Assembly: GCF_002005205.3 (NCBI RefSeq)
Contig: NZ_CP019701.2
Location: 2,342,501 to 2,406,500, forward strand
Length of the DNA stretch: 64,000 bases
Source: Rhizobium rhizogenes
GTDB lineage: Bacteria > Pseudomonadota > Alphaproteobacteria > Rhizobiales > Rhizobiaceae
Direction: 5' to 3'
The notes beneath the pieces are model-generated. The model saw only the letters and a list, made by a program, of their open reading frames with translations, ran no database searches and was not told the origin of the DNA. Every line of letters starts with the position of its first letter. Position 1 is the first letter of the stretch. Shown here one piece after another: positions 22,678-50,301 of the stretch. Made by a program: the position numbers and the translations under genes.

Positions 22678-22929
22678 ATGAACGCGACTATACGTGAAAT
22701 ACTGGCCAAATTCGGCCAGCTTCCAACCCCGGTCGATACGATTGCAGATGAAGCCGATCTTTATGCGGCAGGCCTTTCTTCCTTTGCATCCGTGCAGTTG
22801 ATGCTGGGAATCGAAGAAGCTTTCGACATCGAATTTCCCGATAACCTGCTGAACCGCAAGTCCTTCGCCAGCATCAAGGCCATTGAAGACACCGTTAAGC
22901 TTATTCTGGATGGTAAAGAGGCTGCCTGA
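22678..22929 (+). CDS. Stand-alone acyl/aminoacyl carrier protein
   Basis: An 83-aa carrier protein of the ACP fold. The phosphopantetheine serine is Ser35 in AAGLSSFASVQLML; the usual DSL is changed to SSF. The helix 3/4 part reads EEAFDIEFPDNLLNR, as in acidic ACPs. The ATG at 22678 follows GGAGATACGTCGG; 20 upstream codons are open but lack a ribosome-binding site. It overlaps the flavoprotein start as TGATG. In Agrobacterium and Bradyrhizobium such a carrier next to the aaRS-like ligase is the acceptor of activated amino acid rather than a fatty-acid ACP. Confidence 0.9.
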   Translation: MNATIREILAKFGQLPTPVDTIADEADLYAAGLSSFASVQLMLGIEEAFDIEFPDNLLNRKSFASIKAIEDTVKLILDGKEAA

Positions 22930-24110: not shown

Positions 24111-24114
24111 GACC

Positions 24115-25023: not shown

Positions 25024-25029
25024 TTATCC

Positions 25030-30599: not shown

Positions 30600-33317
30600 A
30601 TGGAACAAAGCCTTACGCGTTACATCTGGTCGCATACGAGGCGGCAGCAGCTTTTCATCCTGCTGATCGTCGCCCTATCGATGATCCCCTATTTCCTCGC
30701 CTTCGATCTGCCCAAACAGATCGTCAACGGCCCCATTCAGGGTGACGGCTTCGAAGGGGCGAACGCGACACAGCTTTTCATGCATCTCACGGTCGATATT
30801 CCCTATTGGGGCACCGTGACATTGTTCCCCGGGCTTGAACTCAACCGCATGTCGATGCTGATGGCTCTCAGCCTGACCTTCCTTGCGCTTGTCATCATCA
30901 ACGGCCTTTTCAAATATTACATCAATACCTACAAGGGCCGCCTCGGTGAGCGCCTGCTGCGGCGTATCCGTTTCGAACTGATCGACAAGATCCTGCGGTT
31001 CCCGCCCTCGCATTTCAAGCGGGTCAAGGGCGCGGAAATTTCCAGCATGGTGAAGGACGAGGTGGAACCGCTCGGCGGATTTACCGGCGATGCCTTTGTG
31101 CAGCCGGCGCTTCTCGGCGGGCAGGCGCTCTCCGCGCTCTTCTTCATTCTCGTGCAGAATTTCTGGCTGGGCCTGATTGCAGCCTTCATGGCCGCGATAC
31201 AGGTCGGCATCATTCCCAAGATGCGCCGCCGCCTCATCGAACTCGGTCGCCAGCGGCAGCTGAGCGCCCGCCAGCTTGCCGGACGCATCGGCGAAATGGT
31301 GGACGGTATCGGCACGATCCACGCCTATGATACCTCCAACTACGAGCGCGCCGATGCCTCGCACCGGCTCGGCGACATCTTCAAGATCCGTTACGATCTC
31401 TACCAGTGGAAGTTCCTGGTCAAATTCATCAATAACTTCCTCGCACAGCTCACCCCGTTTTTCTTTTATGCGCTCGGCGGTTATCTCACCCTCAGGGGCA
31501 GCCTCGATGTCGGGCAGCTGGTCGCCGTCATCAACGCTTATAAGGAACTGCCCGGACCGCTGAAGGAACTGATCGACTGGGATCAGGCGCGCCAGGACGT
31601 GCAGGTGAAATACGAGCAGGTGTTCGAACAGTTCAACGCCCCGAACATGATCGAACCGAACGTGCAGAAACTGTCGCCGGGAGCCGTCGCAGCCATCACG
31701 GGACCAATCGTCGTCACCAATCTGACACTGGAAGACGACAGTGGCAGCCGGCTTCTGGAGCAGGCGTCGCTGAAGATCGAGCCGGGTGAAGTCATCGCCA
31801 TCGTAGGCGGCGCGGGGGGCGAAGCCCTTGCGGATGCGATCGGTCGCACGCTCTGGCCAGCCTCCGGCAAGATCAGCATCAACGATGTCGACATACTGGA
31901 GCTGCCGGAATCGCTGACGGGACGTCGCATCTCCTATGTCTCCTCGGACAGCTATTTTTTCCATGCCAGCCTGATGGACAATCTGCTCTACGGCCTGAAG
32001 CACGCCCCGCTCGCGGACAAAAATTACGAGGGTGCGGCGCTGGAACACCGCAAGTGGGAAATCCGCGAAGCCAAGATGGCCGGCAATCCGCTGATCGACA
32101 TAAACAGCGAATGGATCGACTACGCTTCGAGCCCCGCCGGCGACAGCAGGCCGGAAAATCTCATCAGGGCCATTCTCGCCGTCCTCGATAGCGTGGAACT
32201 GTCACAGGATATTCTGGAATTTGCGCTGCGCTCGTCGATCGATCCTCTGACAGACCTGCATCTTGCCGCCCGCATCGTGGAACTGCGGCATGTGCTACGC
32301 GCCGAACTGGAAAAGGAAAATCTGAGCGGCCTCATCGCGCCCTTCGAGCTTGAAAGCTACAACAGCGAGGCGACGGTCGGCGAAAACCTGCTGTTCGGTA
32401 CCATGCGGGACCCCTCCCAGACGATCCGGACCATCATCGAAAGCGACTATTTCCGCTCCCTGATGCGCGAAACCGGCCTCGTCAAGACCCTGTTCGAGAT
32501 GGGATACACGATCGCCGAAAACATCGTCGAAATCTTCGCCGATCTGCCGGGCGACCACCCTTTCTTCCAGCAGCTGACATTCATGACGCCCGATGACATC
32601 CCGGTCTATCAGCAAATGCTGCAGCGCCTGCAGGGACGCGGTTTCGATGATGCCAATGAAAGCGAAAAGCGCGCGATGCTGCGGCTGAGCTTCTTCTACA
32701 TCGAGCCCCGGCAGCGTTTCGGTCTGCTGTCGCCGGAAATCATGAACAGGATCGTCGAAGTCCGGCACATGTTCCATGAAAACCTGCCCGACAGTCTGAA
32801 GAACGTGATCGAGATCTACGATCCGACGAAATACATGAGCGCCACCAGCCTGCTGGACAATATTCTCTTCGGCAAGGTCAGCCATCGTTATACCGATGCC
32901 TCACGGCGCATTACCCGCATCGTGGCGGATGTGATGCGCAAACAGGGCGTGTATGAGCGTGTTCTGGCGGTCGGCCTGGATTTCAATCTTGGTGCCGGCG
33001 GCAAGCGGCTCGGCCCGCTCCAGCGCCAGAAGCTCAATCTAGCGCGGGCGCTCATCCGCAAATCCGACTATTATGTCTTTAATCGCCCCCTTCCCGGCCT
33101 CGATCCACGACAACAGGAAGAAATTGTCGAACGGGTCATCACACTCCTGAAACAGAACAACAATAACCCGTCAATCATATGGGTTCTGTCGAACGCAAGC
33201 CTTTCGCGCATGTTCGGCCGGGTCATCGTCGTCCACCAGGGACTGGTTACCGCCGACGGAAGTTACGAGACTCTCGCCGAGGAAAACGGTACATTCAAGG
33301 ACATGGTCGCAACATAA
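30600..33317 (+). CDS. ABC exporter-like membrane protein with a degenerate, expanded nucleotide-binding domain
   Basis: A 905-aa protein. Residues 1-330 form an ABC-exporter-type transmembrane domain (helices near 18-35, 85-105, 170-205, 270-298), with a periplasmic insert at about 45-80. Residues 365-905 resemble an ATP-binding domain, but every catalytic motif is altered: Walker A IVGGAGGEAL (no Lys), signature GAGGKRLGPLQRQKL, Walker B YYVFNRPLPGLD (Asp to Asn, Glu to Arg), switch VLSNAS (His to Asn). About 300 extra residues split the domain. The post-Q-loop motif occurs three times: SLMDNLLYG (457), TVGENLLFG (592), SLLDNILFG (750). The gene leads an apparent signalling cluster. It is probably not an ordinary ATP-driven pump. 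Confidence 0.8.
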   Translation: MEQSLTRYIWSHTRRQQLFILLIVALSMIPYFLAFDLPKQIVNGPIQGDGFEGANATQLFMHLTVDIPYWGTVTLFPGLELNRMSMLMALSLTFLALVIINGLFKYYINTYKGRLGERLLRRIRFELIDKILRFPPSHFKRVKGAEISSMVKDEVEPLGGFTGDAFVQPALLGGQALSALFFILVQNFWLGLIAAFMAAIQVGIIPKMRRRLIELGRQRQLSARQLAGRIGEMVDGIGTIHAYDTSNYERADASHRLGDIFKIRYDLYQWKFLVKFINNFLAQLTPFFFYALGGYLTLRGSLDVGQLVAVINAYKELPGPLKELIDWDQARQDVQVKYEQVFEQFNAPNMIEPNVQKLSPGAVAAITGPIVVTNLTLEDDSGSRLLEQASLKIEPGEVIAIVGGAGGEALADAIGRTLWPASGKISINDVDILELPESLTGRRISYVSSDSYFFHASLMDNLLYGLKHAPLADKNYEGAALEHRKWEIREAKMAGNPLIDINSEWIDYASSPAGDSRPENLIRAILAVLDSVELSQDILEFALRSSIDPLTDLHLAARIVELRHVLRAELEKENLSGLIAPFELESYNSEATVGENLLFGTMRDPSQTIRTIIESDYFRSLMRETGLVKTLFEMGYTIAENIVEIFADLPGDHPFFQQLTFMTPDDIPVYQQMLQRLQGRGFDDANESEKRAMLRLSFFYIEPRQRFGLLSPEIMNRIVEVRHMFHENLPDSLKNVIEIYDPTKYMSATSLLDNILFGKVSHRYTDASRRITRIVADVMRKQGVYERVLAVGLDFNLGAGGKRLGPLQRQKLNLARALIRKSDYYVFNRPLPGLDPRQQEEIVERVITLLKQNNNNPSIIWVLSNASLSRMFGRVIVVHQGLVTADGSYETLAEENGTFKDMVAT

Positions 33318-33360: not shown

Positions 33361-33816
33361 ATGCTGTTTAAAGACGAAATTCAAATGCTGAAACGCGTCC
33401 CGTTTTTTTCGGAAATGGAACCGTCGAAACTTAAACTGCTCGCTTTCGCATCCGACCGCGTGTCCTATCACACCGGCGACGTGTTGTTCCGGCAGGGGGA
33501 TGTCGGTGATGCGGCCTATGTCCTTCTGACCGGCAAGGTGGATGTTCTGGTCGATTCACCGTCGGGCACATTGAAAGTGGCGGAGATGACCGGCAACGCC
33601 ATCGTCGGTGAAATCGCCATCCTCTGCGACAGCGTCAGAACCGCCACCGTGCGCGCCTCCACCAATGTGGAAGCCCTGCGCATCGGCAAGGAGCAGTTCT
33701 TCAAGCTGATGTCCGATTTCCCCGATATTACCATCAAAGTCATGCGCGTCCTCGCCGAACGCCTGACACAGACGACGGCGGAACTCAGCAAAGCGCGCGC
33801 AAGCGCCAGAACATAA
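33361..33816 (+). CDS. Cyclic-nucleotide-binding domain protein (single CNB domain)
   Basis: A 151-aa protein consisting of one CRP-type cyclic nucleotide-binding domain and a short C-terminal helix, with no DNA-binding domain. The phosphate-binding cassette reads VGEIAILCDSVRTATVRA, with Glu84 (ribose contact) and Arg93 (phosphate contact) both present; Thr94 is at the position that can favour cGMP or contact the purine. So it should bind cAMP or cGMP. It follows the degenerate ABC gene by 43 nt on the same strand and probably acts as a soluble sensor subunit for a partner protein. The C-terminal helix ends in an Ala/Arg-rich tail. Confidence 0.88.
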   Translation: MLFKDEIQMLKRVPFFSEMEPSKLKLLAFASDRVSYHTGDVLFRQGDVGDAAYVLLTGKVDVLVDSPSGTLKVAEMTGNAIVGEIAILCDSVRTATVRASTNVEALRIGKEQFFKLMSDFPDITIKVMRVLAERLTQTTAELSKARASART

Positions 33817-33934: not shown

Positions 33935-34006
33935 ATAAGAATCTATAGAGACAACGGGCTTCATGGGAGGAAAGCGTGCAAGATTCCGTTGTTATTGGGG
34001 TGTGTC

Positions 34007-34867
34007 ATGGCGTTCGATTCCGACACAGCAAGTCGGGAAAGTAATAGAAATTTTCGGGTAAAGATCTGGGGCGCGCGGGGAACGCTTCCTGTTTCAGGTG
34101 AAAACTTCCGAAAATATGGCGGAAATACCATCTGCATCGAGGTAAGATGCGGAGATCACGTTCTTTTGTTCGATGCAGGTTCAGGCCTTCATCCCGCCGG
34201 TCTGGCGTTACGGGCGGAAGGCATCACGGATGTCGACCTCTTCTTCTCGCATTGTCATTACGACCATATTGTCGGATTTCCCTACTTCAAGCCATTCTAT
34301 AACAGCTGCAACGACGTCGCCATCTGGTCGGGCCATCTTGCCGGCACGATGACAACGCGGGAAATGCTCAAGGACTTCATGAGCCCACCCTGGTTTCCCG
34401 TGCCGCTGGAGATTTGCTGCGCGAAGATCGCCACACGGGACTTCATGCCCGGCGACACGCTCACCCCACGCCCTGGCCTTTCAATCAGGACCGGTATGCT
34501 CAATCATCCCGGCAATGCCGTCGGATACAGGCTGGACTGGGAAGGAAAATCCCTCGCCATCATCACCGATACCGAACACGAGCCGGGTAGCATTGACGAA
34601 ACCGTGCTCGATCTGATCCGGGATGTCGATCTTTTCCTCTATGACGCCATGTTCACCGATGATGAAATGGGCCTTTATCGCGGTTATGGCCATTCATCAT
34701 GGCAACAGGCGCTCCGTCTCGCCAAACTGGCCGACGCCAAAAATGTCGGCTTCATCCACCATGCCCCAAGCCGCAGCGACGAGGAACTGGACAGTATCGA
34801 GAAACAGGCGAAGGCCCTTTTCGACGGCGCCTTCGCGGCGATGGACGGTCAGGTCATCCAGATCTGA
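34007..34867 (+). CDS. Metallo-beta-lactamase-fold hydrolase (possible cyclic-nucleotide phosphodiesterase-like)
   Basis: A 286-aa cytoplasmic metallohydrolase. The N-terminal block VKIWGARGTLPVSGENFRKY and GGNTICIEV defines the subfamily, related to RNase Z/PhnP and class II-type phosphodiesterases. The metal-binding motif is HCHYDH (His82, His84, Asp86, His87), with later ligands likely in GMLNHPG, ITDTEHEPG and GFIHHAPS. I chose the ATG at 34007 over a TTG 18 nt upstream. It lies between a CNB-domain gene and a nucleotide cyclase gene. A role in degrading the cyclic nucleotide would fit the context but is an inference; another phosphoester substrate is equally open. Confidence 0.83.
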   Translation: MAFDSDTASRESNRNFRVKIWGARGTLPVSGENFRKYGGNTICIEVRCGDHVLLFDAGSGLHPAGLALRAEGITDVDLFFSHCHYDHIVGFPYFKPFYNSCNDVAIWSGHLAGTMTTREMLKDFMSPPWFPVPLEICCAKIATRDFMPGDTLTPRPGLSIRTGMLNHPGNAVGYRLDWEGKSLAIITDTEHEPGSIDETVLDLIRDVDLFLYDAMFTDDEMGLYRGYGHSSWQQALRLAKLADAKNVGFIHHAPSRSDEELDSIEKQAKALFDGAFAAMDGQVIQI

Positions 34868-35069: not shown

Positions 35070-36764
35070 ATGATCCGTTTCTTTTCGGAGACCAATTTGA
35101 GACGCACCCGGATTTTATCCGGCCTCATCATATTTGCTTTCGTATTTTCCCATCTTTTCAATCACTCTCTTGCCCTCATCTCCATCGACACCGCCGAACG
35201 GGCGCGAAAATGGTTCAGCCTGATCTGGCTCAACCCCGTCAGCAGCCTGCTTTTTTATGGTTCGGTTCTGGTGCATGTCTGCCTTGTTCTGCGCTCGCTT
35301 TATCTGCGCAGGACGCTGCGAATGCCGCTCCGCGAAGCGCTTCAGGTCATATTCGGCCTGGCTATCCCGTTTCTGATCATCGGCCACGCCGTCAATATCC
35401 GCGTGTCGCATATGCTCTATGGCATTGATGTCGGTTATTATTCGGTCATCCGCAGGCTGTGGATCAACAATCCGATACAAGGTGCCTGGCAAAGCCTCGC
35501 CTTGATCGTGATCTGGGTCCACGGATGTATCGGCCTTTATTTCTGGCTGCGTTACCGGGACTGGTATCCGCGCATAGCCGGGCTCTTCATGACGGTGGCG
35601 GTAATGTTGCCGCTTCTGGCACTGCTGGGCTTCAGCGATGCGGGCCGATGGCTGGCGGAGATCGACGAAAAATACGCGCTTCCTCCCGGTTTGGTCGACA
35701 ATACCATTCAGAAAGACGAATTACCGCTGCAACGCGAGATGGAGACGCAGATCAGGTTCGTCACCGGAACGGTGGAGGCATTGTTTGCCAGTGCGGTAAT
35801 GCTGGTCTTCGCCCTTCGCGGCGTGCGCAGCTGGCGGCAGCGGCTGACGGCAATCGAAATCCGCTATGAACATGGTGCGCAGGCGCGTGTGCCAGCCGGG
35901 CTCAGCATTCTGGAGGCCAGCCGGCTTGCGGGCATACCGCACTACTCCGTCTGCGGCGGCAAGGGACGCTGCTCAACCTGTCGGGTCAAGATACTGGACA
36001 GCAAGGGCCCGCTTCCACCGCCCGGCGACATCGAACAAACCACATTGAGGCGCATCCACGCCGATTCGGACGTGCGGCTCGGCTGTCAGCTGCGCCCCAC
36101 GAGCGATCTCGGCGTCGCACTTCTCGTTTCGCCGCCCCAGCAGAGCGACCTGCCAGCCGACGCGCAGCCGGCCCGCCCCGGCCGGGAAGAGGAAATCGCC
36201 ATCCTCTTCTGCGATCTGCGCAACTTCACCACGCTGTCCGAAGCGAAACTGCCCTATGACGTCGTCTTCCTTCTGAACCGTTATTTCACCATCGTCGGCC
36301 AGGCCGTCGAGCAGGCGGGTGGCCATCTCGACAAATTCATCGGCGATGGCGCCATGGCCCTTTTCGGGCTTGGCGAGGACGCGGAACATGCCTGTCGCAA
36401 CGCCATGAAAGCGGCGGCGGTGATATTGCGGGATATCGCAATCCTGAATGAGGGACTGGAGAAACAGTTCACCGTCCGTCTGGAGGTTGTTGTCGGAATT
36501 CATTCCGGTCCGAGCATCGTCGGCGTTATGGGATACGGCGCCGCAAAAACCCTGACGGCCATAGGCGACACCGTCAATGTCGCAAGCAGGCTCGAATCCA
36601 AGGCCAAGGAATTCGGTGCCGCCATCGTCGTCTCCGAACCGGCCATCATTCAGGCGGGTCAGGATATTGACGATCTCAGAAGCGAACAGATCTCCATTCG
36701 CGGGCGTAACTCGCAGATGAAGGTTTTCCTGCTCTCAAGAGCAGAAAGCGAACGTTATCTCTGA
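35070..36764 (+). CDS. Membrane adenylate/guanylate cyclase with cytochrome b-like membrane domain and [2Fe-2S] ferredoxin domain
   Basis: A 564-aa class III cyclase. Residues 1-255 form about six transmembrane helices with histidines in or beside them (FSHLFNH, VLVHVCLV, IIGHAVN, IWVHGCIG), which suggests b-type heme as in succinate dehydrogenase-like anchors. Residues 262-355 are a plant-type [2Fe-2S] ferredoxin domain with Cys295, Cys301, Cys304 and Cys339. Residues 375-555 are the catalytic domain: metal Asp382 (LFCDLRNFTTLS) and Asp426 (FIGDGAMALFG), and transition-state residues in TVNVASRLES. All catalytic residues are present. The layout predicts redox control of cAMP (or cGMP) synthesis. 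It closes the cluster that starts with the ABC-like gene. Confidence 0.92.
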   Translation: MIRFFSETNLRRTRILSGLIIFAFVFSHLFNHSLALISIDTAERARKWFSLIWLNPVSSLLFYGSVLVHVCLVLRSLYLRRTLRMPLREALQVIFGLAIPFLIIGHAVNIRVSHMLYGIDVGYYSVIRRLWINNPIQGAWQSLALIVIWVHGCIGLYFWLRYRDWYPRIAGLFMTVAVMLPLLALLGFSDAGRWLAEIDEKYALPPGLVDNTIQKDELPLQREMETQIRFVTGTVEALFASAVMLVFALRGVRSWRQRLTAIEIRYEHGAQARVPAGLSILEASRLAGIPHYSVCGGKGRCSTCRVKILDSKGPLPPPGDIEQTTLRRIHADSDVRLGCQLRPTSDLGVALLVSPPQQSDLPADAQPARPGREEEIAILFCDLRNFTTLSEAKLPYDVVFLLNRYFTIVGQAVEQAGGHLDKFIGDGAMALFGLGEDAEHACRNAMKAAAVILRDIAILNEGLEKQFTVRLEVVVGIHSGPSIVGVMGYGAAKTLTAIGDTVNVASRLESKAKEFGAAIVVSEPAIIQAGQDIDDLRSEQISIRGRNSQMKVFLLSRAESERYL

Positions 36765-37296: not shown

Positions 37297-38637
37297 TCAG
37301 GCCTTGATAATGTGTTTTGCGGCAATATCCCGCCGCGCGAAAACATTTCGTGTGTCGATGATCAGCGGCGACCATTCGCAAAGAGCGGCATAATCGACAT
37401 TGTCATGATCAGTCGCGACGAGAACGGCGTCGAAGGCGCCGATGGTCTGTCTGTCCCATGGCACCGATTTCATGCCCATCAGGTGGCTGTATTCGCGGGT
37501 TTTCGGGATTTCCGCCACATGCGGATCATAATAGGCTGCTTCGCCACCCCGCTCCTGGATAAGTTCGATGAGCTTCAGCGAGGGGCTTTCGCGAATATCG
37601 GGCACGTTCTTCTTGTAGGCGAGGCCGACGACCAGAACCTTCGAACGGCTGAGCGCCTTGCCGGAATGGATATCGAGCGCTTCCGCAACCCGCCCGATAA
37701 CATGGCGCGGCATGCCGGTGTTGATTTCACCGGCAAGTTCGATGAACCGCGTCGGCAATTCATATTCCCGTGATTTCCAGGTGAGGTAGAACGGATCGAT
37801 CGGTATGCAGTGGCCGCCGAGACCCGGACCTGGATAAAACGGCATGAAACCGAACGGCTTGGTTTTCGCAGCGTCGATCACTTCCCATATGTCGATACCC
37901 ATGGCCTCGTAAACGACCTTGAGTTCGTTGACGAGCGCGATATTGACGGCACGGAAGACGTTTTCGGTGATTTTCACCGCCTCGGCCGTGGCATTTGTCG
38001 AAACGGGCACGATCTTCCTGACCACCGAACCGTAGAAGGCGGTCATCAGTTTTCCGGCCGCCTCGCCGTCGCCGGCAACGACCTTCGGAATGGTCGAGGT
38101 CTCGAAATCGCGATTGCCGGGATCTTCCCGTTCCGGCGAAAAGCCGATGAAGAAATCGACGCCGGAGGCCAGTCCGCTGCTTTCCAGAATGGTCTTCACC
38201 ACCCCGTCGGTCGTACCGGGATAGGTGGTCGATTCCAGAACCACGAGCTGCCCCTTGCGCAGATAGGCGGCAATCTCCCGGCAGGTCTTTTCGACATAGG
38301 AGAGATCCGGCTCGCGATATTTCGTCAGCGGCGTCGGCACACAGATCGCGATCACGTCACATTCGGCCAGTCTGGCAAAATCGGAGGTAGCGACGAAACG
38401 GTCATCCTGCCTCACGCTTGCCAGCACCTCGTCAGACACCGCTTCGATATAGCTGCGGCCCGCGTCGATCGCGGTAATTTTACCGGGGTCGATATCGAAG
38501 CCAACGACCTTGAAACCGGCTTTCGCCACCGTCATGGCCAGCGGCAGGCCGACATAACCAAGGCCGATCACACCCGCCCTGGCGCTTTTGTTTTCGATGC
38601 TGGAAAGCAGGTTCCGGAAGATATCTGGGGAAGTCAA
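37297..38637 (-). CDS. Nucleotide-sugar (UDP-GlcNAc-type) 6-dehydrogenase
   Basis: A 446-aa NAD-dependent UDP-sugar dehydrogenase of the WbpA/TuaD/Ugd superfamily. The NAD motif is AGVIGLGYVGLPLAMTVAKAG, the catalytic cysteine is Cys277 in GLGGHCIPIDPFYL, and the UDP-binding C-terminal domain follows (VLVVGLAYKKNVPDIRESPS). The LTKYREPDLSYVE segment and overall pattern are closest to the UDP-N-acetylglucosamine or -mannosamine 6-dehydrogenases, which make uronic acid precursors for polysaccharides. A stop codon lies three codons upstream, so the TTG at 38637 is the first possible start. It is divergent from a GT4 gene (127 bp), fitting a glycan locus. Confidence 0.9.
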   Translation of the reverse strand: MTSPDIFRNLLSSIENKSARAGVIGLGYVGLPLAMTVAKAGFKVVGFDIDPGKITAIDAGRSYIEAVSDEVLASVRQDDRFVATSDFARLAECDVIAICVPTPLTKYREPDLSYVEKTCREIAAYLRKGQLVVLESTTYPGTTDGVVKTILESSGLASGVDFFIGFSPEREDPGNRDFETSTIPKVVAGDGEAAGKLMTAFYGSVVRKIVPVSTNATAEAVKITENVFRAVNIALVNELKVVYEAMGIDIWEVIDAAKTKPFGFMPFYPGPGLGGHCIPIDPFYLTWKSREYELPTRFIELAGEINTGMPRHVIGRVAEALDIHSGKALSRSKVLVVGLAYKKNVPDIRESPSLKLIELIQERGGEAAYYDPHVAEIPKTREYSHLMGMKSVPWDRQTIGAFDAVLVATDHDNVDYAALCEWSPLIIDTRNVFARRDIAAKHIIKA

Positions 38638-41766: not shown

Positions 41767-43659
41767 ATGAGCGCAGGCGCAGATTTGCTCCGTATTGAAA
41801 ATCTGCGGGTCTCGTTTTCTCTTATGGGTGGCACGATTGATGCCGTCAGGGGTGCCAGCCTCCGTATTCTTCCGGGAAAAGTAACAGCACTGGTCGGAGA
41901 GTCCGGCTCCGGAAAATCCGTCATCGGCCAGACGATCATGGGCATCCATCCCAAGACCGCACGTGTCAACGGCCGCGTGCTGTTCACCGATCCGGAAAAT
42001 ACCGCCGCCGGTGCCGTCGATCTGCTGCAACTGCCGAAGGACGGCCGGGAAATCCGCTCCATACGCGGCAACCGCGTCGGGCTGATTTTTCAGGAGCCCA
42101 TGACCTCCTTTTCGCCGCTGCACACCATCGGCAACCAGATCGATGAGGCGCTCAGAATCCACAGTATCCTGTCGCCGGCAGAGCGCGCCGAAAAAATGTA
42201 TGAAACGCTCGATCTCGTAGGGTTTTCCAAGCCCAAGAAGGTCGTGAACATGTATCCCTTCGAATTGTCCGGCGGCATGCGCCAGCGCGCCATGATCGCC
42301 ATGGCATTGATCTGTCGCCCTGCCCTGTTGATCGCCGACGAGCCGACGACGGCGCTGGACGTGACCATCCAGGCCCAAATTCTCAAGCTGCTGCGTGATC
42401 TGCAAAGCCGGCTGAACATGAGCATGTTGCTCATCACCCATGATCTCGGCGTCGTCGCGAACATCGCCGACGAGGTCGCCGTGATCTATCAGGGCGAGAT
42501 CATGGAAGCCGGCACAGTCGATGACATATTCAAGGCGCCGAGCCATCCCTATCTCAAGGGCCTGATGGCCGCTGTACCGCATTTCGACATGAAGCCCGGC
42601 GAGAGGCTGAAGGCACTGCGTGAAATCAAGGTCGATCATGAAAGCCTTGTCGGCAAGAAAACCGCGGCGGTGAACAAGACACCCGGCCCGCTTCTGACAG
42701 TCGACAATATCAGCAAGACCTTCACGACCCGCAAATCCAGCTGGTTTCGCAAAGGCGACGCCAACGCCACCAAGGCGGTCAACAGCGTCAGTTTTGAAAT
42801 CCGCCGGGGGGAATGCCTTGGGCTCGTGGGCGAAAGCGGCAGCGGCAAGACCACCGTCAGCAAGATCCTCATGCGCGCCGTTCGCCCGGATGAAGGTGCC
42901 GTCACCTTCCACCGCCCACAGGGCAATATCGACGTGCTCAATGCGAGAGACGGCGATCTCAAGGAACTGCGCTCGAAGATACAGATGGTCTTTCAGGACC
43001 CGATCTCCTCGCTGTCTCCGCGCATGACCGTAGGCAACATCCTGAGCGAACCGATGGAAATCCATGGGCGGGGCGATGCGAAATACCGGGCGGAGAAGGT
43101 CCGCAACCTCGTCAGGGCCATCGGTCTTGGCGAAAGCGCGCTGAACCGCTATCCGCACAGTTTCTCAGGCGGCCAGCGGCAACGTATCGGCATCGCAAGA
43201 GCGCTGGCGCTCGGTCCCGAGCTTCTCATTTGTGACGAGCCGGTTTCCGCTCTCGATGTCTCGGTACAGGCGCAAATTCTCAACCTGCTGAAGGATCTTC
43301 AGCAGGATCTCGGCCTCACCTATCTCTTCATCTCGCATAATCTGGCCGTGGTGGACTATATGGCCGACCGCGTGGCCGTGATGTGCGAAGGCCGCATCGT
43401 CGAACTTGCGCCGCGGGAACTCCTGATGCGCTCTCCGGTTCACCCCTATACGAAATCCCTGCTGGCAGCCGTGCCATTCCCCGATCTCGACCGTCCCCTC
43501 GATTTCCGCACCATCGGCAAGATCAGTGCAACCGGCAAGTTCGACTGGGGCAAGCAGTTCCGCGACGAGGGTGACGGCGAGATGATTTCCGCCGATCTCG
43601 GCGACGGCCATTTCGTCCTTGCCAACGGCAATGCCGACATCCGGGAGCTTCGCCCTTGA
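41767..43659 (+). CDS. Oligopeptide-type ABC transporter ATP-binding protein, two fused NBDs (DppD-DppF-like)
   Basis: A 630-aa protein in which both ATPases of a peptide/nickel-type importer are fused. NBD1 (about 1-265) has VGESGSGKSVIGQ, LSGGMRQRAMIAMAL and LLIADEPTTALD. NBD2 (about 300-560) has VGESGSGKTTVSK, FSGGQRQRIGIARAL and LLICDEPVSALD. Each carries its own oligopeptide C-terminal extension (SHPYLKGLMAAVPHF; VHPYTKSLLAAVPFP). The ATG at 41767 has AAGGAA upstream. It overlaps the binding-protein gene by TTGA. It is the first of four co-directional importer genes in a glycan region, so the substrate could be a muropeptide, lipo-oligosaccharide or peptide. Confidence 0.93.
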   Translation: MSAGADLLRIENLRVSFSLMGGTIDAVRGASLRILPGKVTALVGESGSGKSVIGQTIMGIHPKTARVNGRVLFTDPENTAAGAVDLLQLPKDGREIRSIRGNRVGLIFQEPMTSFSPLHTIGNQIDEALRIHSILSPAERAEKMYETLDLVGFSKPKKVVNMYPFELSGGMRQRAMIAMALICRPALLIADEPTTALDVTIQAQILKLLRDLQSRLNMSMLLITHDLGVVANIADEVAVIYQGEIMEAGTVDDIFKAPSHPYLKGLMAAVPHFDMKPGERLKALREIKVDHESLVGKKTAAVNKTPGPLLTVDNISKTFTTRKSSWFRKGDANATKAVNSVSFEIRRGECLGLVGESGSGKTTVSKILMRAVRPDEGAVTFHRPQGNIDVLNARDGDLKELRSKIQMVFQDPISSLSPRMTVGNILSEPMEIHGRGDAKYRAEKVRNLVRAIGLGESALNRYPHSFSGGQRQRIGIARALALGPELLICDEPVSALDVSVQAQILNLLKDLQQDLGLTYLFISHNLAVVDYMADRVAVMCEGRIVELAPRELLMRSPVHPYTKSLLAAVPFPDLDRPLDFRTIGKISATGKFDWGKQFRDEGDGEMISADLGDGHFVLANGNADIRELRP

Positions 43660-45557
43660 TCACGCGCCGCACCACTCTTGCCCTGCTGGCCTCCGTCTTC
43701 CTGCCGGCCTATGCGCGGGCCGCCTATACCGATCCGGCCTATTTCAAGGAAAAGCGGGAAAAGGGCGAACTGCCGGATGTTGCAGAACGCCTGCCGAAAA
43801 ATCCGCGCGTCATCGACATGAAATCGCTTGGCCGGGAGCCGGGAAAACACGGCGGCTCGGTACGCATGCTGATCGGCGGCCAGCGCGACATCCGGCTCAT
43901 GCCGATCAGCAACTATGCCCGCCTTGTCGGTTATGACGAGAAATTCGAGCTGCATCCGGACATTCTGGAAAGCTACGACATCCAGGAAGAGCGCATCTTC
44001 ACCTTCAAGCTGCGCGAAGGCCACAAATGGTCCGACGGCAGCGATTTCACGTCAGAGGATTTCCGTTATTTCTGGGAGGATGTCGCTCTCAACAGGGAAA
44101 TCCACAAGGGTGGCCCCCCCATCGAACTGCTGGTCAATGACAAGCCGCCCCTGATCGAAGTCATCGACCGGCTGACCGTGCGTTACAGCTGGGACAGTCC
44201 GAACCCGGATTTTCTGGCGAAGCTTGCAGCAGCCTCCCCGGCGAGGCTGTTTTTGCCCGCCGCCTATATGAAACAGTTCCACGTCAAATATCAGACGGCG
44301 GAAAACCTCGCCAAGCTCATCAAGAAAAACAAGACGGATGACTGGAGCGGGCTGCATATCAAGATGTCACGGCAGGTCCGCCCGGAAAACCCCGACCTGC
44401 CGACGCTGGATGCCTGGCGCAACACCACAGCACCACCGGCCGAACAGTTCGTCTTCGAACGCAATCCCTATTACCATCGTGTCGACGAAAACGGTCTGCA
44501 GCTGCCCTATCTCGATCGTTTCCTGCTCAACGTCACGTCCTCCGATATCATTTCGGCCAAGACGGCATCCGGCGACAGCGACCTGCAATATTTCGGCCTC
44601 GATTTTGCCGATTACACCTTCCTGAAGGATGCGGAAAAGCGTTTCCCGCTGAAGGTCAATCTATACAAGCGCTCTCAGGGGTCGCGTATCGCGCTTCTGC
44701 CCAATCTCAATTGCGCCGACCCGGTATGGCGAGGCTGTTTCCAGGATGTGCGCGTGCGCCGCGCGCTGTCGCTCGCGATAAACAGGCATGAGATCAACAT
44801 GGTCTGCTTTTACGGGCTGGCGAAGGAGAGCGCCGATACCGTTCTGCCGGAAAGTCCGCTTTACCGGCAGGAATTTGCGGACGCCTGGAGCGCCTTCGAC
44901 CGGGCGACGGCCAACCGGCTGCTGGATGAGGCCGGTCTCGACAAACGCGACAATGCCGGCATCCGGCTTCTGCCGGACGGCCGTCCGGTCTATATCATTG
45001 TCGAGACGACAGGCGAAAGCACGCTCGAAACCGATGTGATGGAACTGGTGACGGATCACTGGCGGCATATCGGCGTGGCGGTTTCCGTGCGCCCTACCCA
45101 GCGCGATGTCTTCCGCAAGCGCGCCATGGGCGGCGAAGTGCTGATGTCGGTATGGATGGGCATGGACAACGGCGTGCCCACACCGGACATGCTGCCTTCA
45201 GGCCTTGCCCCCACCGGCGACGACCAGCTGCAATGGCCCGTCTGGGGCGTGCATTATCTTTCCGGCGGCCGCGAAGGCAAGGAGCCGGACTTGGCCGAAG
45301 CAGCGCACCTGCTCGATCTCCTCAAAAAATGGCGCAGAAGCGTCACCGAGGAGGAGCGCGAGGCGATCTGGCTGGAAATGCTTGGGATCTATACGCAGCA
45401 GGTGTTTTCCATCGGCATCGTCAACGGCGCGCTGCAACCCGTCGTCCACGTAAAACGCATGCGAAACGTGCCGGACAAGGCACTTTTCGGTTACGAACCC
45501 ACATCCTATCTCGGCGTCTATATGCCGGATGCCTTCTGGTACGACGGAGACGCCTGA
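43656..45557 (+). CDS. Family 5 extracellular solute-binding protein (OppA/DppA-like)
   Basis: A 633-aa periplasmic binding protein. The start is a TTG overlapping the upstream stop (TTGA). It is supported by the signal peptide it yields (MITRRTTLALLASVFLPAYARA, cleaved before AYTDP). The family pattern is intact, with FTFKLREGHKWSDGSDFTSEDF near residue 115 and the later RRALSLAINRHEIN. It is longer than DppA (about 535 aa), because of a longer N-terminal region. Substrate not readable. It is followed by its two permease genes, with 1 nt between its stop and the next ATG. Confidence 0.92.
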   Translation: MITRRTTLALLASVFLPAYARAAYTDPAYFKEKREKGELPDVAERLPKNPRVIDMKSLGREPGKHGGSVRMLIGGQRDIRLMPISNYARLVGYDEKFELHPDILESYDIQEERIFTFKLREGHKWSDGSDFTSEDFRYFWEDVALNREIHKGGPPIELLVNDKPPLIEVIDRLTVRYSWDSPNPDFLAKLAAASPARLFLPAAYMKQFHVKYQTAENLAKLIKKNKTDDWSGLHIKMSRQVRPENPDLPTLDAWRNTTAPPAEQFVFERNPYYHRVDENGLQLPYLDRFLLNVTSSDIISAKTASGDSDLQYFGLDFADYTFLKDAEKRFPLKVNLYKRSQGSRIALLPNLNCADPVWRGCFQDVRVRRALSLAINRHEINMVCFYGLAKESADTVLPESPLYRQEFADAWSAFDRATANRLLDEAGLDKRDNAGIRLLPDGRPVYIIVETTGESTLETDVMELVTDHWRHIGVAVSVRPTQRDVFRKRAMGGEVLMSVWMGMDNGVPTPDMLPSGLAPTGDDQLQWPVWGVHYLSGGREGKEPDLAEAAHLLDLLKKWRRSVTEEEREAIWLEMLGIYTQQVFSIGIVNGALQPVVHVKRMRNVPDKALFGYEPTSYLGVYMPDAFWYDGDA

Positions 45558-45558
45558 T

Positions 45559-46557
45559 ATGCTGCGGTATATTTTAAAGCGCATCCTCGTCATGATCCCC
45601 ACGCTGATCCTGATCTCGATGCTGGTCTTCACCATCATCGAATTGCCGCCGGGCGATTATTTCGAAAGTTATGTCGCCGAACTGCGCGCCATGGGCGAAA
45701 CGGCAAACCTCGCCGAAATCGAGGAACTGCGCGTCCGCTATGGCTTCGATCAACCGGCGCCGATCCGTTATTTCCGCTGGGCCACCGGCATGCTGGTCGG
45801 TGATTTCGGTTATTCCTTCGAATATCAGCTGCCGGTCAGTGACGTGGTCGGAGATCGCCTCTGGCTGACGGTTCTGGTCTCCTTCGTCACCATTATCGTT
45901 ACCTGGCTTATCGCCTTCCCGATCGGCATCTATTCCGCCACGCATAAATACAGCTGGGGAGATTACGGGCTCACCTTCCTTGGCCTGCTCGGCATCGCCA
46001 TTCCCAACTTCATGCTGGCGCTGATCCTGATGTATTTCGCCAATATCTGGTTCGGCATATCCATCGGCCATCTGATGGATCGGGAATATCTCAACCAGGC
46101 GATGAGCTGGGCGAAGTTCAAGTCGATCCTTGAACATATCTGGATACCCGTCCTCATCATCGGAACGGCCGGCACCGCCGGCATGATCCGCCGCCTGCGC
46201 GCCAACCTGCTCGATGAATTGCAGAAGCAATATGTCGTCACCGCCCGTGCCAAGGGGCTGCACCCCTTCAAGGTGCTGACCAAATATCCGCTGCGCATGG
46301 CGCTGAATTTCTTCATCTCGGATATCGGCTCGATCCTGCCCGCGATCATATCGGGCGCGGAAATCACCGCTGTCGTCCTGTCGCTCGAAACCACCGGCCC
46401 GATGCTCATCCGGGCGTTGCAGAGCCAGGACATGTATCTGGCCGGTTCGTTCCTGATGTTCCTCGCTTTCCTGACGGTGATCGGCGTTCTGGTATCGGAT
46501 ATCGCCCTTGCCATACTCGACCCGCGAATCCGCTTCGGAGGTGGTAACGTCAAATGA
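45559..46557 (+). CDS. Peptide-type ABC transporter permease (DppB-like)
   Basis: A 332-aa inner-membrane permease with six predicted helices. The ATG at 45559 (MLRYILKRILVMIPTLILIS) is preferred; it lies 1 nt after the binding-protein stop and has GGAG upstream, whereas a start at 45529 would overlap that gene. The usual N-terminal DppB signature PGDYFESYVAELRA is present, followed by GLDQP-like YGFDQPAPIRYFRW. The coupling loop reads YVVTARAKGLHPFKVLTKYPLR. It overlaps the next permease by ATGA. Confidence 0.93.
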   Translation: MLRYILKRILVMIPTLILISMLVFTIIELPPGDYFESYVAELRAMGETANLAEIEELRVRYGFDQPAPIRYFRWATGMLVGDFGYSFEYQLPVSDVVGDRLWLTVLVSFVTIIVTWLIAFPIGIYSATHKYSWGDYGLTFLGLLGIAIPNFMLALILMYFANIWFGISIGHLMDREYLNQAMSWAKFKSILEHIWIPVLIIGTAGTAGMIRRLRANLLDELQKQYVVTARAKGLHPFKVLTKYPLRMALNFFISDIGSILPAIISGAEITAVVLSLETTGPMLIRALQSQDMYLAGSFLMFLAFLTVIGVLVSDIALAILDPRIRFGGGNVK

Positions 46558-47729
46558 CTTCATCCATCCCGAAACCGGGCGAAGCGCTGCCCCATTACGT
46601 ATCGACCGCGCCTTTCGATCCATCGTTGATCGAGCCCAATACCTCTGGAATGGCGGCCTTCAGCAAGGCGTCGCAACTGCGACTCATGTGGTGGCAGTTC
46701 CGCCAGCACAAGATCGCGGTTTGGTCCGGCGCCTTTCTGCTGGTGCTTTATCTCTCGATCCTGATCTGCGAATTCCTCGCGCCCTATAATCTCCACACCC
46801 GCAATATCGAACATATCTACGCCCCGCCTCAGGCCATTCATTTCTTCAACGACGGCAAATTTGTCGGCCCCTTTGTTTACGGCCGGGAAATGACGCTCGA
46901 TATGGACAATCTGAAACGCGTCTACCGGGATGTGCCGACGGATATCCAGCCGCTGCGTTTCTTCTGCAAGGGCGATACCTATCGTTTCTGGGGCATGTTC
47001 GAGGGCAGGACCCATTTCGTCTGCCCCGCAGAAGGCGGTGAAATGTTCCTGTTCGGCACGGATCGCCTCGGACGCGACGTGCTGTCCCGCATCATTTACG
47101 GCGCCCGCATTTCGCTCACCATCGGCCTCCTCGGCGTCGCCATGAGCTTCGTTCTCGGCATTGTGATCGGCGGTCTGGCAGGGTATCGCGGTGGCACCTT
47201 CGATCTGATTGTCCAGCGCATCATCGAGGTCCTGCAATCCATTCCAAGCATTCCGCTGTGGCTGGCGCTTGCGGCGATCATGCCTGTGACCTGGAGCCCG
47301 ATCCTCGTCTATCTCGGCATCACCATCATTCTCGGCATGCTGGACTGGACGGGGCTGGCGCGCGCCGTGCGCTCGAAACTGCTGGCACTTCGCGAGGAAG
47401 ACTATGTTTTGGCTGCACAATTGATGGGTGCTGGCACACCGCGCATCATCGGCAGGCATCTTATTCCCGGCTTCATGTCGCATCTCATCGCCTCGGCCAC
47501 ATTGACGATACCGGGCATGATTCTCGGCGAAACCGCCCTGAGCTTTCTCGGCCTCGGTCTTCGCCCGCCGATCACAAGTTGGGGAATTCTGCTCACGGAG
47601 GCGCGCAGCGTCAGCGTCATTGCGCTATATCCATGGCTTCTCATACCGACGATCCCGGTCGTCCTCGTCATTCTGGCCTTTAATTTCTTCGGTGACGGAC
47701 TACGTGATGCTGCGGACCCCTTCAGATAA
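46554..47729 (+). CDS. Peptide-type ABC transporter permease (DppC-like)
   Basis: A 391-aa inner-membrane permease, longer than the usual 280-300 aa because of a cytoplasmic N-terminal tail (about 65 aa) and a large periplasmic insert after TM1 (about residues 85-165, with IEHIYAPPQAIHFFND). The core is normal: FLFGTDRLGRDVLSRIIYGA, then the coupling loop YVLAAQLMGAGTPRIIGRHLIP. The long loop is typical of the subgroup that includes microcin C/oligopeptide YejE-like permeases. Together with the fused ATPase this makes the importer YejABEF-like in layout. Confidence 0.92.
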   Translation: MTSSIPKPGEALPHYVSTAPFDPSLIEPNTSGMAAFSKASQLRLMWWQFRQHKIAVWSGAFLLVLYLSILICEFLAPYNLHTRNIEHIYAPPQAIHFFNDGKFVGPFVYGREMTLDMDNLKRVYRDVPTDIQPLRFFCKGDTYRFWGMFEGRTHFVCPAEGGEMFLFGTDRLGRDVLSRIIYGARISLTIGLLGVAMSFVLGIVIGGLAGYRGGTFDLIVQRIIEVLQSIPSIPLWLALAAIMPVTWSPILVYLGITIILGMLDWTGLARAVRSKLLALREEDYVLAAQLMGAGTPRIIGRHLIPGFMSHLIASATLTIPGMILGETALSFLGLGLRPPITSWGILLTEARSVSVIALYPWLLIPTIPVVLVILAFNFFGDGLRDAADPFR

Positions 47730-47801
47730 AATGGAATACGCCTTGATGAACTGCCCTTCCGCCATCGCCTTTACCGTGAAAGGCAACAAGAGGTGTGGCC
47801 C

Positions 47802-49010
47802 ATGACCTCCCGTTTAAACGACGCGCGCATTCTCATGTACAGCCACGATTCCTTCGGGCTCGGGCATCTGCGGCGGTGTCGCACGATTGCGCATGCGCTG
47901 GTGGAGGATTATCGCGGCCTCAACGTCCTCATCATTTCAGGCGCGACGATTGCCGGCGCCTTCGATTATCGCGCCCGCGTCGACTTCGTGAAAATCCCGA
48001 GCGTCATCAAGCTGCGCAACGGCGAATATACCTCGATGGACAGGCATATCGATCTTCAGGAAACCCTGAAGATGCGCCGCTCCATCATCTATCACACCGC
48101 CGAAAGCTTTAAGCCTGACATCTTCATCGTCGACAAGGAGCCCATGGGCCTGCGCGGCGAGGTGGAGGAAACGCTCGCCTATCTCAAGGGGCAGGGAACA
48201 AAGCTCGTCATCGGCCTGCGCGATGTCATGGATGCGCCGCAACTGCTCGAGGCGGAGTGGAAGCGCAACAACGTCATGACCAAGATCGGCCAGTTCTATG
48301 ACCATGTCTGGGTCTACGGCCCACCGGATTTCCACGACCCGCTGACGGGCCTTGATGTTCCTGAGACCGTTCGCGACAAGATGGATTTCGTCGGCTTCCT
48401 GCAGCGCTCCAAAACGCAGGCCGAAACCGTGTCACATCGACCGGAAGGTGACTATCTTCTCGTCACCACCGGCGGCGGCGGCGATGGCAGCGAATTGATC
48501 GACGATGTCATCAACGCCTATCGCCATGACAAGGAACTGACGCACAAGGCGCTGGTGGTTCTCGGCCCCTATATGCCGGCCGATCAGCGTCAGCGTTTCA
48601 TGAGCAGCGTCGCCGATATTCCGCATATAGAGATCATCGAATTCGACAACCGCATGGAAGATCTCGTCGCCGGCGCCCAGGCCGTCGTGTCGATGGGCGG
48701 CTACAACACCGTCTGCGAAATATTGTCCTTCGACAAGCCCGCCCTCGTCGTGCCGCGCACGGTGCCGCGGGAAGAGCAGCTTATCCGCGCCAGCCGCGCA
48801 TCGGAGCTTGGTCTTTTCGACATGCTTCTGCCAGAAGACGCCGAAAATCCCGCCAAGATGGCCGCGGCTCTGAAAGCGCTGCCGAACCGCGCGCCGCCTT
48901 CCGTCAATTCACGAAATCTCAAGCTCGACGGTCTGGAAAACATATCGCGCCGGATCGCCGAATGGCTGCCGCCCGAGGGCGAAAAGGCGCCGATCACGCT
49001 GACCGCGTGA
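47802..49010 (+). CDS. MurG-like (GT28-type) glycosyltransferase, first of a paralogous pair
   Basis: A 402-aa GT-B protein. The start is the ATG at 47802, with GAGG 8 nt upstream; a GTG 9 nt earlier is unlikely. The N-terminus MYSHDSFGLGHLRRCRTIAH matches the glycine-rich acceptor loop of MurG-like enzymes. The C-terminal donor site includes LLVTTGGGGDGSEL and AVVSMGGYNTVCEILSFDKPALVVPR. The same motifs recur in the gene at 50298, so the two are paralogs separated by a GT4 gene. It is not murG itself, which lies in the division cluster. The acceptor is unknown. Confidence 0.83.
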   Translation: MTSRLNDARILMYSHDSFGLGHLRRCRTIAHALVEDYRGLNVLIISGATIAGAFDYRARVDFVKIPSVIKLRNGEYTSMDRHIDLQETLKMRRSIIYHTAESFKPDIFIVDKEPMGLRGEVEETLAYLKGQGTKLVIGLRDVMDAPQLLEAEWKRNNVMTKIGQFYDHVWVYGPPDFHDPLTGLDVPETVRDKMDFVGFLQRSKTQAETVSHRPEGDYLLVTTGGGGDGSELIDDVINAYRHDKELTHKALVVLGPYMPADQRQRFMSSVADIPHIEIIEFDNRMEDLVAGAQAVVSMGGYNTVCEILSFDKPALVVPRTVPREEQLIRASRASELGLFDMLLPEDAENPAKMAAALKALPNRAPPSVNSRNLKLDGLENISRRIAEWLPPEGEKAPITLTA

Positions 49011-49053
49011 CCGGCTCCCCGACCAACACCGCTTCAAAAGAGACACGCGCAAC

Positions 49054-50301
49054 GTGACAGATACAAAAAAAATCGTGGTGCTCCTCAAGGGCTATCCGCG
49101 CCTGTCCGAGACTTTCATAGCACAGGAACTTCTGGGGCTTGAAAAGGCCGGGCTGAAACTTGAACTCATGTCAATGCGCCGGCCGACGGATAAAAAACGC
49201 CACCCCGTTCATGATGAAATCCGTGCACCCGTCACCTATCTGCCGGAATATCTGCATGAAGAACCCTTGCGGGTTTTAAAGGCGCTATGGGCCTGCCGCA
49301 AGAAACCGGGCTTCACCAGCGCGCTTCGCCGCTTCTTCAGCGATCTGCCGCATGATCTCAGCCGCAACCGCTTCCGCCGTTTCGGGCAGGCCGCCGTGCT
49401 GGCGCATGAATGGCCTGCGGATGCCGAGTGGCTGCATGTCCACTTCATCCACACGCCTGCCTCGGTCGCCGCCTATACCCATCTCATGACAGGCACACCC
49501 TGGACGATTTCCGCCCATGCCAAGGATATCTGGACCTCGAACGACCGCGACCTTGCCGCCAAGCTGCAAAGCGCCCGCTGGGCCGTAACCTGCACCGCCG
49601 GTGGTTTTCAACACCTGCAAACCCTTTCCGGAGCAAAACGGAATGTTCATCTGAGCTATCATGGGCTTGATCTCACCCGTTTTCCCCATTTCGACGCACC
49701 GCGTCCGGCACGAGACGGATCCGACGCGGATGACCCGGTCCGGATTTTAAGTGTCGGCCGGGCAGTCAAGAAAAAGGGCATCGATATTCTGCTACAGGCG
49801 CTGGCGTCTCTTCCGCAGCATATCCATTGGCGCTTCACCCATATCGGCGGCGGCGATGAACTGGCAGCGCTGAAGAAACTCGCCGACGAACTCGACATCG
49901 CCGACAGGATCGTCTGGACCGGCGCCATGGACCAGAAGCAGGTGCTGGAGAACTACCGTGAAGCCGATCTCTTTGCGCTGGCCTGCCGCATCACCAGCGA
50001 TGGCGACCGAGACGGCCTTCCCAATGTGCTGGTCGAGGCGGCCAGTCAGGCGCTGACCTGCATTTCCACCAATATTTCGGGCATTCCGGAGTTTTTCGTC
50101 TCTGGCGAAAACGGACTGCTGACGGAGCCGGAAAACCCCGCAGCCTTCGCAGAGGCTCTGCGCAGCGCGATCACCGATCCGCAATTGCGCCAGCGTCTGG
50201 GCGCTGCCGCCGAAAACCGCGTTCGAACCGCCTTCGATCACCGCACCAGCATTGCCGAACTGAAGGCCCTGTTCGAGACCGAGTGGGAAAAGACGCCATG
50301 A
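49054..50301 (+). CDS. Glycosyltransferase family 4 between two MurG-like genes
   Basis: A 415-aa GT4 enzyme. The N-terminal region KIVVLLKGYPRLSETFIAQE is the ExoL/colanic-acid (WcaL)-like acceptor side. The C-terminal donor side has ILSVGRAVKKKGIDILLQAL, and the E-x7-E motif at SDGDRDGLPNVLVEAASQAL. The start is GTG at 49054. It overlaps the second MurG-like gene (ATGA). The three transferases probably build one oligosaccharide in sequence. Confidence 0.9.
   Translation: MTDTKKIVVLLKGYPRLSETFIAQELLGLEKAGLKLELMSMRRPTDKKRHPVHDEIRAPVTYLPEYLHEEPLRVLKALWACRKKPGFTSALRRFFSDLPHDLSRNRFRRFGQAAVLAHEWPADAEWLHVHFIHTPASVAAYTHLMTGTPWTISAHAKDIWTSNDRDLAAKLQSARWAVTCTAGGFQHLQTLSGAKRNVHLSYHGLDLTRFPHFDAPRPARDGSDADDPVRILSVGRAVKKKGIDILLQALASLPQHIHWRFTHIGGGDELAALKKLADELDIADRIVWTGAMDQKQVLENYREADLFALACRITSDGDRDGLPNVLVEAASQALTCISTNISGIPEFFVSGENGLLTEPENPAAFAEALRSAITDPQLRQRLGAAAENRVRTAFDHRTSIAELKALFETEWEKTP

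Follow-up and report, generated by a model that had tools for sequence, protein, structure and literature searches.

An ABC exporter-like protein with a degenerate ATP site and a repeated helical segment, conserved beside a cyclic-nucleotide-binding protein

The window analysed here is a stretch of 64,000 nucleotides from contig NZ_CP019701.2 (assembly GCF_002005205.3, positions 2,342,501..2,406,500), whose source is named Rhizobium rhizogenes and is called Agrobacterium in this analysis. Our subject is a gene at 30600-33317 on the forward strand whose product, the pseudo-ABC protein, has the membrane domain of an ATP-binding cassette (ABC) exporter joined to a motor domain with a degenerate ATP site, together with the small cyclic-nucleotide-binding protein (CNB) encoded downstream. 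Their parts are as follows, in window coordinates.

30600..31634, + strand: ABC exporter-type transmembrane domain, residues 1-345, the most conserved part of the family (Pfam ABC_membrane)
31695..32009, + strand: N-terminal part of the nucleotide-binding domain, with a dead Walker A (31806-31829) and the Q-loop region (Pfam ABC_tran, motif positions)
31917..32273, + strand: helical repeat copy 1 (C1), motif SLMDNLLYG at 31968-31994 (hhalign to the exporter Q-loop segment)
32010..32969, + strand: stretch containing the insert of about 300 residues, residues 471-790 (phmmer against same-genome exporters)
32277..32741, + strand: helical repeat copy 2 (C2), motif TVGENLLFG at 32373-32399 (hhalign to C3)
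32745..33095, + strand: helical repeat copy 3 (C3), motif SLLDNILFG at 32847-32873 (hhalign to the exporter segment)
33009-33053 and 33069-33089, + strand: degenerate signature (within the first interval) and dead Walker B, both in the C3 region (motif positions)
33361..33816, + strand: CNB, 151 amino acids, 43 bases 3' of the pseudo-ABC gene (Pfam cNMP_binding, 74.2 bits)

The reading frame is open throughout and encodes 905 amino acids. The exporter membrane domain is clearly present (Pfam ABC_membrane PF00664, residues 87-311, 82.1 bits against a cut-off of 28), while the ATPase profile ABC_tran is matched only by residues 386-473, over profile positions 1-80 of 137, at 34.3 bits. NCBIfam and PDB sequence searches likewise return exporter similarity in two stretches with an insert between them, the second stretch being weak in the PDB search. 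The whole protein reaches 147.7 bits against the MsbA model TIGR02203, whose cut-off is 602; for the membrane part alone (residues 1-345), MsbA is the best resemblance, at 67.7 bits, far under that cut-off. When exporters of the same genome are aligned by phmmer, they run to about residue 469 and resume at about residue 791, having advanced only some 22 residues of their own, which gives an insert of about 300 amino acids.

The motifs that should surround ATP are altered. Walker A reads GGAGGEAL (residues 403-410) and, having no Lys, departs from G-x(4)-G-K-[ST]; Walker B reads YYVFNRP, with Asn828 and Arg829 in place of the Asp and the catalytic Glu; and the signature is LGPLQ, not LSGGQ. These findings agree with the initial annotation, which had claimed an intact gene, a Walker A without Lys, Asn and Arg in Walker B, a changed signature and some 300 extra residues splitting the motor domain. 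It had also read the switch His of the H-loop as Asn: the His is indeed lost, but the residue that aligns there is Ser864, and Asn865 is its neighbour.

The same annotation had placed a short motif, which follows the Q-loop, at residues 457, 592 and 750, and had proposed that three partial ATPases were merged. The positions are exact. The motif pattern is found three times, against a mean of 0.0001 per shuffle in 20,000 shuffles, although the pattern was defined post hoc from the copies. Profiles of the segments were taken from an alignment of 91 sequences (A2) and compared with a profile of ten same-genome exporters that spans the region from the Q-loop to Walker B. The post-Q-loop stretch of exporters is matched by copy 1 at 97.3% probability over 51 columns and by copy 3 at 98.9% over 71 columns, and the motifs of these two copies come to lie at nearly identical exporter positions. 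Copy 2 alone matches exporters weakly (24%, 13 columns) and matches copy 3 at 97.8% over 75 columns; by these profiles, its link to the exporter segment runs mainly through copy 3. Direct comparison of copy 1 with copies 2 and 3 is also weak (39% and 20%). None of four controls exceeds 0.82%: two segments of the membrane domain, the segment with Walker A and the tail of copy 2. That tail (640-735) overlaps copy 3 at residues 716-735, and the 94.9% obtained for this pair was left unused. The motif asparagines (461, 596 and 754) never vary in A2, and in a wider alignment (A1) of 28 rows they vary hardly or not at all.

By these profile matches, what was duplicated is the segment and not a whole ATPase. 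The protein has one Walker A and one Walker B, so that of the merger proposal only the recurrence of the Q-loop/helical segment stands, and three merged ATPases are rejected. As judged by profile comparison, the segment is repeated in tandem inside one motor domain, in a repeat that is real but partial.

How far the loss of the ATP site extends was assessed in nested samples. At least 588 relatives were confirmed among genome contigs, and the best 80 loci form the closest set (79 titled Rhizobiales and one Cypionkella metagenome-assembled genome); with 40 diverse loci, hand-chosen from 38 genomes that had a match in the order or class samples, they make up 120 loci. For the wider family, 391 proteins (46 + 120 + 225) were gathered, one shorter than 780 amino acids was left out, and clustering of the other 390 at 70% identity yielded 84 representatives. 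What had been seen in a single protein holds throughout its closest relatives: among the 80 closest loci, none has the Walker A Lys or the Ser/Thr after it, none has the Walker B Asp (Asn in 80/80), and none has the catalytic Glu or the switch His, while the final Gln of the signature is retained in all 80. On these alignments, degeneracy of the ATP site is a conserved property of the closest relatives.

One might suspect a decaying pseudogene or a sequencing error, since the catalytic motifs are lost. A full-length match was, however, found in 25/25 genomes of the genus (its own included), the same positions are altered alike in 80/80 loci, and the gene is under purifying selection, with a ratio of nonsynonymous to synonymous substitution rates (dN/dS) of 0.026-0.113 for the whole gene in six comparisons and 0.170 in the highest single segment, values to be read with the caution that several dS estimates exceed 1 and are near saturation. 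We reject decay and error with near certainty.

Beyond the genus, the gene occurs in 5 of 16 other genomes of the order and in 128 of 385 of a class sample (E 1e-60). In a phylum sample, 21/299 genomes match at 1e-90, all of them in the same class; the misses, which were not split by class, include some genomes of the same family. Among 262 records, plasmids carrying the gene include those of Rhizobium, Sinorhizobium, Phyllobacterium, Azospirillum and Ruegeria.

In the wider family the loss is less uniform. Of the 84 representatives, 43 have Lys and 21 have Arg at the Walker A Lys position, 5 have the following Ser/Thr, 12 have the Walker B Asp (60 have Asn), 41 the catalytic Glu, 15 the switch His and 77 the D-loop Asp. 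All four core residues (Lys, Ser/Thr, Asp and Glu) occur together in a single representative, L151 (genome G307), which is possibly a remnant of an active ancestor. On a quick tree, in which 35/81 inner branches are weakly supported, the absence of both Lys and Arg takes 4 changes to explain, where shuffles take 18.1. A single clade of 17 rows (support 100), which includes the Agrobacterium protein and its relatives from the 80 loci, has lost Lys/Arg throughout.

These residues bear on whether the protein is a weak or non-canonical ATPase that still binds nucleotide, perhaps without magnesium, and is only modulated by CNB. In 64/84 representatives the Walker A Lys position is occupied by Lys or Arg, which would suit such an enzyme, as would the frequent catalytic Glu and the nearly constant D-loop Asp. 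Both of the expected magnesium ligands are rare, however (Ser/Thr in 5/84, Walker B Asp in 12/84), and the 80 closest loci retain none of the core residues, and so we regard this reading as improbable. The initial annotation had held that the protein is not powered by ATP. For the Agrobacterium protein and its 80 closest relatives, predicted independence from ATP is well supported; for most of the wider family, it is likely.

Conservation within the family is also displaced from the motor to the membrane. Mean pairwise identity is 0.555 in the membrane domain, 0.412 and 0.401 in the motor parts and 0.387 in the insert, whereas nine ordinary exporters of the same genome show the opposite (0.156 in the membrane domain and 0.530 in the motor), a contrast in which only the direction counts, as those controls are paralogues.

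The second half of the evidence concerns CNB, a clear member of PF00027 (74.2 bits against 27.5). Neighbouring domains in the 120 loci were scored by six-frame profile searches: CNB is separate, on the same strand and downstream in 110/120 (a median of 56 bases between domain ends), lies in the same open frame as the ABC gene in 9/120, and was not found in one (L130). It follows the pseudo-ABC gene in 80/80 of the closest loci, the 40 diverse loci dividing into 30 separate, 9 in frame and the one (L130) with no CNB in the fetched stretch. At L144 about 600 bases lie between the two, while the distances of 1217 at L161 (separate) and 1354 at L151 (fused) are inflated by a split ABC-profile match, and the open frames at L161 overlap. 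Fusion was confirmed by Pfam in Ruegeria conchae and in L046. The Agrobacterium genome (5.48 Mb) has six cNMP-binding domains.

The phosphate-binding cassette Gly-Glu ... Arg, whose role in CNB we take to be that known from CRP, is present and conserved. In an alignment of 120 sequences (the window's own and those of 119 loci), Gly83 occurs in 120/120, Glu84 in 113/120 (Asp in the other 7) and Arg93 in 119/120. Since this pocket is conserved and the ATP-site residues are lost, the ATP pocket appears to have decayed while the cyclic-nucleotide pocket was kept. The initial annotation had noted that the gene sits with cyclic-nucleotide genes; with CNB adjacent or fused in 119/120 loci, the link is strong, and stronger than could be known then. 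Cyclic AMP (cAMP) is the most likely ligand, to go by the pocket motif.

If the protein were half of a heterodimer, an intact exporter partner could supply the ATP site, and heterodimeric exporters with one degenerate site are indeed common (PMC7756269, in the part available). Another full exporter, however, lies in only 2/120 fetched stretches, a partner encoded elsewhere not having been searched for, which argues for a homodimer; we consider the heterodimer very improbable.

Two further genes and a glycan cluster follow CNB in the window:

33989..34867, + strand: MBL-fold hydrolase, RNase Z-like, with a weaker likeness to a cyclic-nucleotide phosphodiesterase model (all NCBIfam scores under cut-off)
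35070..36764, + strand: membrane cyclase, CyaC-like, with N-terminal histidines, a [2Fe-2S] ferredoxin domain and a class III catalytic domain (Pfam Fer2, Guanylate_cyc)
37297..38637, - strand: nucleotide-sugar dehydrogenase, Atu2582 by gene order (Pfam; order compared with PMC9790009)
38765..40602, + strand: GT4 glycosyltransferase (Atu2583 by gene order) and a polysaccharide-deacetylase-like protein (22.1 bits, just under 23.1) (Pfam)
41767..47729, + strand: oligopeptide/Yej-type ABC transporter inside the glycan cluster (ATPase, binding protein and two permeases)
47793..51449, + strand: three glycosyltransferases, GT28-like (Atu2590), GT4 and GT28-like (Atu2592), by gene order (order compared with PMC9790009)

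The cyclase was aligned with 13 of the 15 locus cyclases that score at least 400 bits. In these 14 sequences, His28, 32, 69, 106 and 151 and the cluster cysteines (Cys295, 301, 304 and 339) are conserved in 14/14 and the DKF motif in 13/14. By sequence its architecture is CyaC-like, with heme binding and a response to quinone being putative. No second full-length copy of this kind was found in the genome, where two other matches extend over the catalytic domain only. A relative of the MBL-fold protein lies near the pseudo-ABC gene in 36/80 of the closest loci; this protein could end a messenger signal.

The pseudo-ABC gene stands in a glycan cluster with a published phenotype. According to the available part of PMC9790009, transposon sequencing (Tn-seq) showed that insertions in the glycosyltransferase genes Atu2583, Atu2590 and Atu2592 improved the fitness of a yejABEF mutant, as did those in Atu2582 (UDP-GlcNAc dehydrogenase) and Atu2577 (a putative ABC exporter), and the cluster makes an uncharacterised glycan required for phenazine tolerance. 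If the window's genes are numbered from the pseudo-ABC gene as 2577, the dehydrogenase falls at 2582 and the glycosyltransferases fall at 2583, 2590 and 2592, in agreement with that paper. A GT4 profile match above 250 bits lies near the gene in 20/40 diverse loci. On Rhizobium johnstonii pRL11 (locus L186), a nucleotide-sugar dehydrogenase, a cyclase, a four-gene ABC transporter and three glycosyltransferases precede the pseudo-ABC gene and CNB; the excerpt of PMC11103875 lists pRL110056 among O-antigen genes needed in root colonization.

On the other side of the pseudo-ABC gene, beside the cluster, 22929-26013 holds in a row an acyl-CoA-dehydrogenase-like gene, an amino acid--[acyl-carrier-protein] ligase (NCBIfam NF005479, 516 bits against a cut-off of 357) and a DUF1839 gene. 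At 28434-30293 on the reverse strand, a single protein has two alpha/beta-hydrolase halves like exosortase-A-associated hydrolases 1 and 2, both under cut-off.

We give about an even chance to the reading that the pseudo-ABC protein and CNB form an ATP-independent unit of ABC fold that is controlled by a cyclic nucleotide and serves glycan assembly. In this reading, the membrane protein would be without use of ATP and is probably a homodimer. Its conformational input would be a cyclic nucleotide, cAMP being the likeliest, and CNB, encoded alongside or, in certain lineages, fused C-terminally, would be the sensor. In ordinary exporters, the helical subdomain contacts the coupling helices of the membrane domain. 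The repeated Q-loop/helical segment would enlarge this interface and, because of that contact, may be the place where CNB docks; liganded CNB on the motor-derived part would then change the shape of the membrane domain. In Agrobacterium, a rise in the messenger, which could plausibly come from the redox-type cyclase nearby, would switch on or gate the assembly or movement of an envelope glycan.

The initial annotation had proposed a membrane receptor or scaffold that responds to a cyclic nucleotide and is not a transporter powered by ATP. The response fits our data, but with the membrane domain best conserved and the gene grouped with glycan genes by Tn-seq, a passive gated path keeps a place. 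As an ATP-independent gated flippase or channel, comparable to CFTR, the protein would let a substrate such as a lipid-linked glycan move downhill when CNB and its ligand open it. The MsbA likeness of residues 1-345 and the cluster location would accord with this, but the MsbA score is far under cut-off and the cluster has its own Yej/Opp-type transporter, which leaves such a path rather unlikely.

Several points weigh against a cyclic-nucleotide-controlled, ATP-independent unit for glycan assembly. Because the Walker A Lys survives in 43/84 representatives and the catalytic Glu in 41/84, and L151 has all four core residues, some family members may still bind or hydrolyse nucleotide. Even within the order, rows L044-L046, outside the Agrobacterium clade, have Arg at the Lys position, and L045 retains the Ser and the Walker B Asp. 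The 80 closest loci are by construction the nearest matches, the 40 diverse ones are the author's selection, and the conservation controls, as said, are paralogues. The CNB ligand is deduced from the pocket motif, and the cNMP-type domain of Nostoc HetC bound ppGpp, not cAMP (PMC10986499, in the text available), so that a ligand cannot be assumed. A cyclase lies near the gene in 24/120 loci by any profile hit and in 15 at 400 bits or more; elsewhere the messenger would need another source. The other 20 of the 40 diverse loci have no such glycosyltransferase in the fetched stretch, and the fused Ruegeria gene has neighbours other than glycan genes. Finally, Atu2577 was assigned by gene order and not by comparison with the C58 record. 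In the CNB-fused lineage of rows L146-L150 and L187 (Ruegeria), the Ruegeria gene has as neighbours a CAAX protease gene, accD and one for folylpolyglutamate synthase, and genome G194 has three matches.

A more far-reaching version can be put forward only tentatively: in an alphaproteobacterial exporter lineage, ATP would have been swapped for a cyclic nucleotide, CNB clamping the threefold helical repeat to open or close an ATP-free, MsbA-like glycan path or platform, and in Agrobacterium, the respiratory redox state would act through the heme/iron-sulfur cyclase on surface glycan assembly. If so, an ABC fold that is gated by a cyclic nucleotide and works without ATP would, to our knowledge, be seen here for the first time. 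Joint multi-term queries of the open-licence literature found no paper on an ABC transporter together with cyclic-nucleotide binding, which is weak evidence of absence; a further query brought up HetC and reviews, one of them on degenerate sites.

The dead ATP residues and the near-constant adjacent or fused CNB suggest that a second messenger replaced ATP as the control input. Databases name the family an ATP-binding transporter, though the motor of many members looks dead; as a widespread and conserved family, it offers a natural experiment in driving an ABC fold without ATP, and CNB is its clear partner protein. In Agrobacterium, it is a candidate control point for an envelope glycan linked to cell-wall stress and phenazine tolerance (PMC9790009, in the part available).

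Among known systems, ABCB/MsbA-like exporters are alike by sequence in the transmembrane domain and the overall motor fold, whereas the pseudo-ABC protein differs in its altered Walker A, Walker B, signature and H-loop, its insert of about 300 amino acids and its repeated helical segment; the family's membrane domain is also more conserved than its motor, unlike in ordinary exporters. SUR is an ABC exporter fold turned regulatory subunit. CFTR (ABCC7), as the available text of PMC7756269 describes it, is an exporter fold turned gated channel, and the same source lists TAP, TM287/288, TmrAB and many human full-length ABC proteins as having lost catalytic residues at one site, a loss also seen here. 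TAP-type exporters keep a second canonical site, however, while the presumed pseudo-ABC homodimer would have none, and CFTR hydrolyses ATP at one site, while here the candidate input would be a cyclic nucleotide bound by CNB, as a separate protein or a fused domain. HetC of Nostoc is an ABC exporter with a cNMP-binding-type domain needed for function; unlike in the pseudo-ABC protein, that domain is N-terminal and is accompanied by a C39 peptidase, and the ATPase Glu is needed (PMC10986499, as far as available). The nearest parallel to the cyclase is S. meliloti CyaC, an adenylate cyclase with a heme B membrane anchor and a [2Fe-2S] cluster that responds to the quinone redox state (PMC10463352, in the part available); the window cyclase, whose gene lies close to the pseudo-ABC gene, is like it in architecture by sequence. 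The pseudo-ABC protein differs from the degenerate-site exporters, from CFTR and SUR, and from HetC in combining a presumed homodimer that has lost all core ATPase residues with a repeated segment and a near-constant CNB.

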